Origin: Actinomycetota bacterium
GTDB lineage: Bacteria; Actinomycetota; Actinomycetes; Mycobacteriales; Pseudonocardiaceae
Direction: 5' to 3'
Length of the DNA stretch: 64,000 bases
Assembly (NCBI GenBank): GCA_021324675.1
Contig: JAJPIR010000358.1
Location: 1-64,000, forward strand
Under the pieces are notes generated by a model. That model made no database searches, had not been told where the DNA came from, and saw nothing but the letters and a program-made list of their open reading frames with translations. Numbering within the stretch: position 1 is the stretch's first letter; every line of letters starts with the position of its first letter. A program made the translations under genes and the position numbers. Below, in pieces: positions 3,951-7,420 of this stretch.

Positions 3951-4096
3951 TGTGGTATCACCTACCCGACATCCCATTGAACATCAGGAAACGTCCGCGA
4001 TCTACCGCATCTGGCGACGCCCGGCAACGATGTGTGAACTTGACATGGTTGCGGGGCCACAAAGGCGTACACATTTTAATTCGTCATAGACAAATC

Positions 4097-4122
4097 GTTA
4101 CCAGTTGGTGACGAGTAGTCAC
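4097..4122. promoter_or_regulatory. Overlapping inverted repeats upstream of the His-rich peptide gene
   Basis: Two overlapping dyads are visible: an imperfect one at 4097-4112 (half-sites GTTACCA and TGGTGAC) and a perfect five-base one at 4108-4122 (GTGAC, 5-nt spacer, GTCAC). They could be an operator for the small gene 180 bp downstream. No regulator is identified and chance cannot be excluded. Confidence 0.25.
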
Positions 4123-4305
4123 TTCTTTCTCTCGGCACGGGCCACATTCACCCCGTCGAGGACGAGCCCCCGGGTACGAACTGGGCAGGATCGGCCTTCT
4201 TCTACGTGATGACTGCTTACGGGGCTGCAGCATCGACTTGGCCGGGAGCGCAGACCCTGGACAGGCAATCCAAGGCACCCGCCAAGCGCAATAGGGAGGA
4301 CTCCG

Positions 4306-4458
4306 ATGATAATCAGTGACATTTTCACCAGCGGCTTGAGGGATCTTAGCGATCACGACCGTGACCATGATTACGACCATCACCATCACCATCACCGTCA
4401 CCACCGTCACCATCACCGGCACTGGTGGGATGGACATCGCTGGCGTGACCGCGACTGA
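4306..4458 (+). CDS. Histidine-rich 50-aa peptide, probable metal binder
   Basis: A short gene that reads cleanly from ATG at 4306 to TGA at 4456, with GGGAGGA about 6 nt before the start and an intrinsic terminator 28 nt after the stop. Of 50 residues, 15 are His, 10 Asp and 8 Arg. Residues 25-30 are six consecutive His, followed by an Arg/His-alternating stretch to residue 39, then two Trp. Such composition is typical of nickel, zinc or copper storage or buffering peptides, for example Hpn-type proteins in other bacteria, but no homology can be shown here. It has no Cys, signal peptide or membrane segment. The complement gives a long Val/Met-rich frame that I consider a shadow. Good initiation signal and its own terminator make translation likely; function is inferred from composition only. 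Confidence 0.68.
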   Translation: MIISDIFTSGLRDLSDHDRDHDYDHHHHHHRHHRHHHRHWWDGHRWRDRD

Positions 4459-4485
4459 GGATGATTAACTCAACCAGCTCAGACG

Positions 4486-4517
4486 GAAGGGGGCCCCACA
4501 GCGGGGCCTCCTTTTTT
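4486..4517 (+). terminator. Rho-independent terminator after the His-rich peptide gene
   Basis: A GC-rich stem (GGGGGCCCC paired with GGGGCCTCC, 5-nt loop) is followed by a run of six T. This classical intrinsic terminator is rather uncommon in mycobacteria, and it closes the short transcription unit at 4306-4458. Confidence 0.8.
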
Positions 4518-5048: not shown

Positions 5049-5341
5049 CTGGTACCTGTAAACCCGTTTCTCTTTTGAAAGCGTACGTGGGCCGGGATTG
5101 GATGCGCAGACTCGCACTGTCTTTGAGGTAGAGCGCTACCCGTTGCCGGGCGTGCAGCCATCCCTTGCTCGACTGTTGCACGTTTTCCATTCATCTTCAG
5201 TCGGCAACGTTCGGGTGGCAGTAGTGACGCCTGAGGAATAAAGCCGACGCCGCCGTGCACCGGCTGGCTACTCACGCGCAGCGGACCAGCAAGCCAACGA
5301 GCTGTCGCCTGGAAACAATCCTGACCCAACGAGGACGCCGC

Positions 5342-7420
5342 GTGCACATCACCACTAAGACGATCCTGGTGGGGGCCACCATCGTGTCGATAACACTGGG
5401 TCTCGTGATCGCGGCAAGTTCGCATCCAGCTGGTCCTGGGGCGAAGTCCACCGCCACGCTGACGGCGTTTAGTGCGCTGACTCCCAGGGGGAGCCAGCGG
5501 GTGAGCGCCGCCGCCGGCTCAGGTATCCAGCCCAAACGCCACCCCACCGAGCGGGTGTGTCCGGATAACGGCAAGCTGCGGGCATGTTTCGCCATCCGCC
5601 AGACCGACACAGTCCAGCCCCAAGTGACGGCCAACGTAGCCCCACCTGGGTTTGGCCCGGCTGACCTTCGCAGTGCCTACCAGTTGACCACCAACGGCAG
5701 TGCCGCAATGACCGTTGCGATCGTCGATGCCTTCGATGACCCCAATGCTGAATCGGATTTGGCGATGTACCGCTCCACCTTTGGTCTGCCTCCCTGCACC
5801 ACCGCCAACGGTTGCTTCCGCAAGATCAACCAAAACGGCCAAGCCAGCCCGCTGCCTGCACCCGACACCGGCTGGGCTGGGGAAATCTCCCTGGATATGG
5901 ACATGGTCTCAGCGATCTGTCCCAACTGCCACATCCTCTTGGTGGAGGCCAACCGGCCCACAGTGAGCAGCCTGGGCACTGCGGTAAACACCGCGGTGAA
6001 CATGGGGGCGAAATTTGTGTCCAACAGCTATGGCGGCCCTGAAGACGGCGCAGAAAACAATTACGACGCCGCCTACTTCCACCACCCCGGTGTGGTGATC
6101 ACTGCCAGCACAGGAGATGGTGGCTTTGGAGTGTCGTACCCCGCATCCGGCGCCGGCGTGACCGCCGTCGGCGGCACTTCCCTAACTCGGGACACCAGCC
6201 CCCGCGGCTGGTCCGAAGGCGCCTGGAGCGGCGCAGGCTCGGGATGCTCAACCTCGGTAGCCAAACCGGCCTTCCAAACAGGGCTTGCCACCGGATGCTC
6301 CCGGCGCGCCGTAGCCGACGTCGCCGCGGTCGCCGACCCGCAAACAGGCGTGGCCGTCTATCAAAGCTTCGGCGCCAACGGCTGGGCAATCTACGGCGGC
6401 ACCAGCGTCGCCGCTCCCATCATCGCCTCGATCTACGCCCTGGCTGGCAACCCGGGAACGTCCGACTCCCCCAACAGCTACCCCTACGCCCACACCGGTG
6501 CCCTCAACGACGTCACCACCGGCAGCAACGGCCCCTGCGGCGCCCCCCTGTGCACCGCCGGCGCCGGCTATGACGGCCCCACCGGACTAGGCACCCCGCG
6601 CGGCATGCTGGCCTTCGCTGCCAGTGCTGCTGCCACGACGACCACCCTCAGCGCCACCGCCAACCACTCAATGCTCGGCCAGCCGGTGACGTTCACCGCC
6701 ACCGTCAGCTCACCGGCACCTACGACGACCGGCAGCGTGACCTTTACCAGCGACACCACCACGCTAGCAACCGTCACCCTGTCGGATGGCCGGGCCGCCG
6801 TGACCACCTCAACATTGCCGGTAGGCATTCACACCATCACTGCCGCCTACACCGGCGACATCACCACCAATCTGGCAGCCAGCAGCGCCACCGTCAGCCA
6901 AACCATCATTCAGGCGACCACGACTACTGAACTGGCCTCCTCGCTGAACCCGTCGCCGTCTGGCCAGGCTGTTACCTTCACCACCACCGTGACGTCCTCC
7001 GCGGGCACCCCGACCGGCAGCGTGACCTTCACCAGCGACACAACCACGCTAGGCACCGTCACCCTGACCGGAGGCCAAGCCACCCTGAACACGTCGACCC
7101 TTACCACCGGAGACCACACCATCACAGCCAGCTATAGCGGTGACGCGAACTTCCAGCCAAGCAACATCACACTGACCCAGAGCGTCACCCCACCCATGGC
7201 AGGCCTCGCCGATCCGGAGCTTTCCCCGCTCATGAATTCCCTATCCGAAGCCATTACTGACGGCAGCGGACAGCAAATAATCGGACTGGCACCGCCTTGC
7301 GCCATGATGGGTCCTTACCAAGGCCTGTCCGACATCGACAAATTGAACTACTCGATCCAGGCGAACGACGGGTGCCTACAATTCATCACCACCTTTACCG
7401 GCCCTACCACAGACCCATGA
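5342..7420 (+). CDS. Secreted S53 (sedolisin) serine-carboxyl peptidase with two Ig-like domains
   Basis: A 692-aa protein from a GTG start with GAGGAC 5 nt upstream. A signal anchor/peptide (residues about 6-27) is followed by a short basic region and the S53 catalytic domain. Catalytic Glu181 and Asp185 (GWAGEISLDMDM), the oxyanion Asp259 (ASTGDGG) and nucleophile Ser355 (GGTSVAAP) are all present. The large pro-kumamolisin propeptide seen in many sedolisins is missing. After the catalytic domain come two tandem Ig-like repeats of about 90 aa, each with a TGSVTFTSDTTTL motif, then a 75-aa tail with two Cys. An extracellular acid-active endopeptidase is expected; the Ig-like repeats probably mediate wall or substrate binding. 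The two Ig-like units share near-identical stretches, so they arose by duplication. Confidence 0.88.
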   Translation: MHITTKTILVGATIVSITLGLVIAASSHPAGPGAKSTATLTAFSALTPRGSQRVSAAAGSGIQPKRHPTERVCPDNGKLRACFAIRQTDTVQPQVTANVAPPGFGPADLRSAYQLTTNGSAAMTVAIVDAFDDPNAESDLAMYRSTFGLPPCTTANGCFRKINQNGQASPLPAPDTGWAGEISLDMDMVSAICPNCHILLVEANRPTVSSLGTAVNTAVNMGAKFVSNSYGGPEDGAENNYDAAYFHHPGVVITASTGDGGFGVSYPASGAGVTAVGGTSLTRDTSPRGWSEGAWSGAGSGCSTSVAKPAFQTGLATGCSRRAVADVAAVADPQTGVAVYQSFGANGWAIYGGTSVAAPIIASIYALAGNPGTSDSPNSYPYAHTGALNDVTTGSNGPCGAPLCTAGAGYDGPTGLGTPRGMLAFAASAAATTTTLSATANHSMLGQPVTFTATVSSPAPTTTGSVTFTSDTTTLATVTLSDGRAAVTTSTLPVGIHTITAAYTGDITTNLAASSATVSQTIIQATTTTELASSLNPSPSGQAVTFTTTVTSSAGTPTGSVTFTSDTTTLGTVTLTGGQATLNTSTLTTGDHTITASYSGDANFQPSNITLTQSVTPPMAGLADPELSPLMNSLSEAITDGSGQQIIGLAPPCAMMGPYQGLSDIDKLNYSIQANDGCLQFITTFTGPTTDP

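Follow-up and report, generated by a model that had tools for sequence, protein, structure and literature searches.

A small gene for a histidine-rich peptide, present in three diverged copies in one actinobacterial assembly, and its possible role in metal buffering

MymT, the Cys-based metallothionein of mycobacteria, is one of several described systems to which the small peptide reported here bears some likeness, both being very small proposed metal buffers. The peptide differs in having no Cys in the copy first noticed and 0 and 1 in its two paralogs, counts that rule out a MymT-type metallothionein and bear out the original prediction of a His-based rather than Cys-based peptide. Hpn is a small His-rich protein that sequesters nickel, and Hpn and Hpn-2 of gastric Helicobacter species are described as small, very His-rich, present as paralogs in a genome, narrow in species range and linked to the nickel supply of urease and hydrogenase (PMC4671568). 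The peptide resembles them in all but the last of these traits, whereas hydrogenase-type genes occur here also in genomes without the peptide. In PacL1 (Rv3269, DUF1490), the C-terminal motif DLHDHDH binds zinc 1:1 as a synthetic peptide, with a KD of about 6 µM (PMC9374683). The stretch (L)xDHDxDHD of our peptide is likewise short, disordered and made of alternating Asp and His, but PacL1 also has a transmembrane segment and Glu/Ala repeats and is partnered by a P-type ATPase (PMC9374683); the peptide lacks all three. DUF2510 domains (PF10708) carry WWDGxRW near their end, as in a protein of a related genome scoring 36.6 bits, and the peptide contains this motif without the rest of the domain. 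The open-access literature yielded no report of this His-rich peptide family and no paper on DUF2510.

The window (the whole stretch of 64,000 nucleotides that was analysed) belongs to an assembly of 364 contigs and 5.63 Mb, here called G000. The locus and its parts are listed in Table 1. The frame of 50 codons encodes a peptide of 50 amino acids, 15 of which are His (30%), with HHHHHH at codons 25-30. The strong ribosome site, the clean frame with six consecutive His and the His content of the original prediction were therefore all recovered. It had also expected that gene finders with length cut-offs would miss such a gene; such programs commonly accept genes from about 90 nt upwards, so that a frame of 150 nt would pass. 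Its comparison was drawn with mycobacterial peptides, but nothing in the analysis supports a mycobacterial source; the family of G000 includes genomes as large as 12.8 Mb, from which we infer a different family within that order.

Table 1. Positions of the features at the peptide locus, counted from the first nucleotide of the window.
Feature	Codons	Position	Strand	Basis
Operator-like inverted repeats (putative) in the interval that separates the peptide gene from the divergent asnB-like gene		4095..4122	.	sequence only
Shine-Dalgarno sequence AGGGAGGA		4293..4300	+	five bases before the ATG
His-rich peptide gene, ATG 4306 to TGA 4458, product MIISDIFTSGLRDLSDHDRDHDYDHHHHHHRHHRHHHRHWWDGHRWRDRD	50	4306..4458	+	two paralogs within G000, divergence biased to silent sites
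Amphipathic segment M[IL][IV]S[DE]IF[TS]xGLxxL, conserved	1-14	4306..4347	+	hydrophobic moment and model
Asp-His segment DHDRDHDYD	16-24	4351..4377	+	resembles Zn-binding DLHDHDH of PacL1
His/Arg run HHHHHHRHHRHHHRH	25-39	4378..4422	+	alignment of copies
WWDGHRW (WWDGxRW in all three copies)	40-46	4423..4443	+	resembles the end of DUF2510 domains
Terminator hairpin with U-run		4485..4515	+	folding; hairpins at the same place after both paralogs

The composition of the frame was of little help in recognising a gene. In 20 shuffled versions of the window, the His count of every frame stayed at or below 9 per 50 codons, and two out-of-frame stretches (6574-6930 and 6931-7137) of a Thr-rich gene with an Ig-like region (5255-7420) reached 14-15 His per 50 codons. 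Because these readings are as His-rich as the peptide, His content alone is a poor proof of a gene and was ruled out as such; the two stretches provide a useful negative control for calling His-rich small frames.

The evidence for coding came from paralogs. The single window sequence was searched against 61 relatives, and it located two paralogs within G000 itself, one of 47 aa on the minus strand of contig C3 (about 628-768, E 6e-15) and one of 48 aa on the plus strand of contig C227 (1375-1521, E 4e-10). All three share the start given in Table 1, an Asp/His plus His/Arg centre and a WWDGxRWxD end, and both paralogs are likewise preceded by a comparable purine-rich ribosome site and followed by a hairpin past the stop, although this set of family traits was derived from the same three copies that show it. 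The chains contain 10-15 His, and the paralogs are 63-82% identical in protein sequence to the window copy. In the three codon-aligned pairs, the differences at codon positions 1/2/3 amounted to 7/4/18, 9/10/25 and 9/8/20, so that the third position took 18 of 29, 25 of 44 and 20 of 37 differences, and pS values of 0.74, 0.90 and 0.71 stood against pN values of 0.10, 0.20 and 0.19, with gaps set on the protein alignment, which favours gaps in codon phase. When the same substitutions were placed at random, as many residues were kept in none of 2000 trials for any of the pairs. CAC and CAT were swapped silently between the copies. Frame +1 was the best conserved frame and the sole one free of stops in every pair (82, 63 and 65% identity), and the remaining frames contained stops and showed 33-67% identity between copies.

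Because two extra genomic copies diverge mainly at silent sites, the frame can be regarded as coding. We conclude from these comparisons that it is very probably a real small protein gene under selection, one of a three-member family in the assembly, and the pattern indicates purifying selection on all three copies; because their silent sites are near saturation, the copies appear to be old. The expectation of a real, autonomous coding unit is borne out by the two paralogs, the silent-site bias and the ribosome sites and hairpins belonging to each copy. A low-complexity small frame that composition could not prove has thereby been shown to be a constrained gene. A small non-coding RNA that holds an open frame by accident would also be a compact unit with a terminator, but the codon-based divergence pattern contradicts it and Rfam at gathering strength returned nothing between 3900 and 5300, which leaves it hardly credible.

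Three technical origins of the copies were considered. A vector-derived His tag or an assembly artefact is ruled out by three diverged genomic copies. The C3 and C227 contigs have GC contents of 0.642 and 0.610 and tetranucleotide correlations to the window of 0.92 and 0.88, compared with 0.89-0.95 for pieces of the window itself; they give no sign of contamination by these measures, on which the contig of a close relative would score alike (0.94 for the related genome G002). A mobile repeat is disfavoured by the extent of the similarity between the paralogs, which runs from the ribosome site to near the stop or the hairpin.

The region behind the stop codon folds strongly. The hairpin of the window copy begins 26 nt past the stop and contains 13 pairs, including one G-U pair inside a GC core, and folding of 4459-4517 gave -27.1 kcal/mol (z -3.81), a value that none of 200 shuffles equalled. 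For the window, C3 and C227 copies, the z values were -3.8, -4.8 and -3.2, with equally stable folds in 0, 0 and 2 of 200 shuffles; the hairpin sequences differ among the copies, and that of C3 has no T-run. The original prediction of a perfect intrinsic terminator therefore stands as to a strong hairpin and fails as to perfection, since the T-run partly pairs with the A's 5' of the stem and the hairpin escaped a simple scan for terminators. Judged by its sequence, the window copy is an autonomous unit, which stands alone and carries a terminator of its own.

A series of His codons ahead of a terminator is also what an attenuator leader peptide for a downstream operon would present, read either in frame or, from 4361, in the +2 frame with its Thr/Ile codons, and Rfam gave a sub-threshold threonine-leader match at 4374-4517 (21.4 bits against a cut-off of 55, E 0.31). 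However, there is nothing to regulate downstream of any of the three copies: past the terminator of the window copy, the next gene lies on the other strand, the C3 copy points towards a TIG-domain frame of opposite orientation, and about 1.5 kb separate the C227 copy from the next recognised gene, a kinase. The frame test is contrary as well, because stops interrupt the +2 frame, in which the copies are just 37-50% identical. Leaders of amino-acid operons, including a Thr leader, were ruled out on the missing same-strand biosynthetic operon and the frame test, and we give the leader reading next to no chance.

Upstream, an asnB-like gene is transcribed divergently from the window copy, and two putative operator-like inverted repeats occupy the interval. 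The first is TCGTTACCA-gt-TGGTGACGA (4095-4114) and the second GTGAC-N5-GTCAC (4108-4122), whose arms GTGAC and GTCAC are kept in G002 with a different middle. No Zur-, Nur- or CRP-like site was recognisable in the region upstream of the peptide gene, the best matches to their consensuses being about as good as in shuffled sequence.

The family is narrowly distributed. A profile search found intact copies in one of the 11 genomes of the genus, namely G000 itself, with a next best match at E 0.046; combined searches by start pattern, DNA and profile found no intact copy in the other ten. At the syntenic place in G002, recognised by the same asnB-like/nitrilase/methyltransferase block and a nearby small lipoprotein-like gene that looks homologous, there is a recognisable copy whose frame is broken as assembled, either through a real break or an assembly error. 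Gap runs of 1, 12, 10 and 1 fall in its coding stretch, and 100 of 129 aligned bases are identical. The last of these runs is one extra base near the 3' end of the window copy. The window copy ends in RDRD before its stop, the C3 copy ends in DDDWDD, and Trp-Asp-Asp is absent from the window copy, which seems from this comparison to have lost its last three residues. The original prediction had made its case depend on conservation of the frame at the protein level among relatives; the frame is kept as protein among three copies in one assembly, but in none of the ten other genus genomes is it intact, and in G002 it is broken. Because of this distribution, relatives evidently do without the peptide.

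Wider scans agreed with this picture. Among 397 genomes of the order, there was one real match (G000) and four weak ones (E 4e-4 to 9e-3), which lie inside stop-to-stop frames of 65, 387, 302 and 244 aa and have neither the family start nor WWDGxRW. A profile search of a contig set covering 84,980 species gave 583 stretches with the pattern, none of which was confirmed, although low-complexity filtering may hide some, and viral contigs gave 231 stretches by profile. The N-terminal pattern gave 43 stretches in the contig set and 9 in the viral contigs; all 52 were relocated, and none has at least 6 His in its first 60 residues. A protein search of plasmids and phages gave no match, a profile search of the PDB gave weak matches alone, mostly to tagged constructs, and those other His-run places in the genus that were inspected do not resemble the peptide. 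The WWDGxRW pattern occurs at 77 places in 65 of 390 genomes of the family (G000 included), three of them the peptide's own copies. Inspection of 41 of the other 74 places revealed no short His-rich peptide; several have the look of DUF2510, and one was confirmed (36.6 bits in Pfam). On these sequence searches the family is narrow, with no relative found beyond the assembly's own copies.

An alternative that fits this distribution is a lineage-restricted gene of little present use, young or selfish, drifting in copy number and decaying, as suggested by intact copies in one of 11 genomes, the broken copy in G002 and the shortened end of the window copy. Against this, pN is far below pS in all pairs and silent sites are near saturation, which speaks for long-kept constraint, and we consider such a gene improbable.

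No family of Pfam or NCBIfam reaches its cut-off for the peptide, as the original prediction of novelty required. Below the cut-offs, names of His-rich metal proteins (ZrgA, nickel/cobalt efflux) do appear, which reflects composition only, and the Hpn family is absent from the matches up to E 10. To our knowledge, Hpn has no WWDGxRW end and no conserved amphipathic start. Membership in DUF1490/PacL (PF07371) was ruled out, because the peptide gave no match and no ATPase occurs among the neighbouring frames put to Pfam. Likewise, none of the three copies matched DUF2510 up to E 10, which argues against membership there given the 36.6 bits of the positive example.

The preferred reading of the peptide is a cytosolic buffer or carrier for metal (Zn, Ni, Cu or Co), which we hold tentatively and rate slightly below an even chance. 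It would be a soluble, largely disordered, metal-holding micro-protein, in which the Asp-His segment and the His/Arg run may bind a divalent metal (Zn, Ni, Co or Cu). Each chain would probably take up several ions, bound with modest affinity and exchanged rapidly, so that metal would be buffered or handed on. We infer the translation level, the binding of metal in the cell and the kind of metal from sequence. Metal holding is suggested because (L)xDHDxDHD is close to the zinc-binding DLHDHDH described for PacL1 (PMC9374683), and the His/Arg run would add metal sites, as His does in Hpn (PMC4671568).

A demand for metal exists in this genome, because it contains [NiFe]-hydrogenase-type large subunits and a DUF1490/PacL gene. 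The start of one such subunit lies at the end of the window's contig, beyond the window (G000:C262:66890-66994). The DUF1490/PacL gene (G000:C246:4432-4689) is unique to G000 among the 11 genus genomes and adjoins two frames identified by eye, one for a P-type ATPase with a CPC motif and one Fur-like; its presence together with the peptide in one genome is weak evidence. Several points count against a metal role. The neighbourhoods of the three copies have no metal gene in common, the only one beside any of them being of Na/Ca-exchanger type and lying on the C3 contig (2382-3446), some 1.6 kb upstream of the peptide copy there; there is no regulator box; and there is no link to nickel enzymes across the genus. 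Matches to the hydrogenase subunits occur in 10 of the 11 genomes of the genus, in 9 of them above the cut-off, so that the distribution of nickel enzymes does not follow that of the peptide.

The conserved ends bear on what else the peptide may do. Across the three copies, the two ends are the best conserved parts, and Asp, Arg and Trp are as well kept as His; the His/Arg run varies in length by whole codons in a protein-guided alignment. The first 14 codons have a hydrophobic moment of 0.51, which 3.9% of shuffles reach, and an AlphaFold model places a helix at residues 6-14 with a mean pLDDT of 56, a low confidence at which a fold is neither supported nor denied. The conservation suggests that the amphipathic start and the WWDGxRW end might dock the peptide to a partner or to itself. 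A serious rival is accordingly a disordered peptide, zwitterionic and capped by aromatic residues, whose target would be a protein, nucleic acid or membrane or which would sense pH through its His, with metal binding being incidental. The conserved ends, the ending of DUF2510 domains of related genomes in WWDGxRW, the equal conservation of Asp, Arg and Trp and a net charge without His of -2, -4 and 0 in the three copies would all suit such a peptide. However, the His/Arg centre is also kept despite free silent change, and a His run of six to eight is unusual in a pure linker. We regard this rival as unlikely but worth serious consideration, and the decaying gene discussed above comes next after it.

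Another candidate is the precursor of an antimicrobial peptide that is modified or secreted. Such precursors usually keep their N-terminal part conserved and vary more in the core that follows, and the asnB-like gene adjoins the window copy. The asnB-like protein, however, combines a glutaminase with a synthase domain, as ordinary asparagine synthetases do; among the frames beside the C3 and C227 copies that were put to Pfam, none was recognised as a modification enzyme or a transporter; both ends rather than the start alone are conserved; and the charge is near neutral. A precursor is therefore quite improbable.

If the preferred reading of a metal buffer holds, the peptide would act like Hpn or like a free-standing PacL motif while belonging to neither by family match, and the lineage would possess a His-based counterpart, missed by present family libraries, to the Cys-based metallothioneins. 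A more specific proposal, to which we assign a rather low probability, sees the peptides as free-standing Asp-His/His-Arg metal carriers that constitute a new family; in them, a PacL-like stretch would be joined to a DUF2510-like aromatic cap and the differing His/Asp/Arg mixes of the three copies would suit different metals or clients.

Two other sets of short frames were noticed in the course of the searches. A second small-peptide family in the genus starts with MTGYFK[SP]F[DE]RA from GTG or TTG and continues in an Arg/His/Ser-rich tail. It gave nine matches in six of the 11 genus genomes (G006 C264 and C210; G005 C269; G009 C42 and C368; G008 C31; G001 C217 and C115; G000 C99:25861-25998), and the DNA over its start is near-invariant in five species. 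An inverted repeat lies just upstream in six of the seven copies inspected, and a GC-rich hairpin-like stretch follows the stop. Comparison of its profile with that of the His-rich family by hhalign gave a probability of 0.5% and E 0.11, which fails to show homology. In genome G681, four near-identical short frames with PVIIWWDGYRWT occur at four places and probably represent a repeated element.
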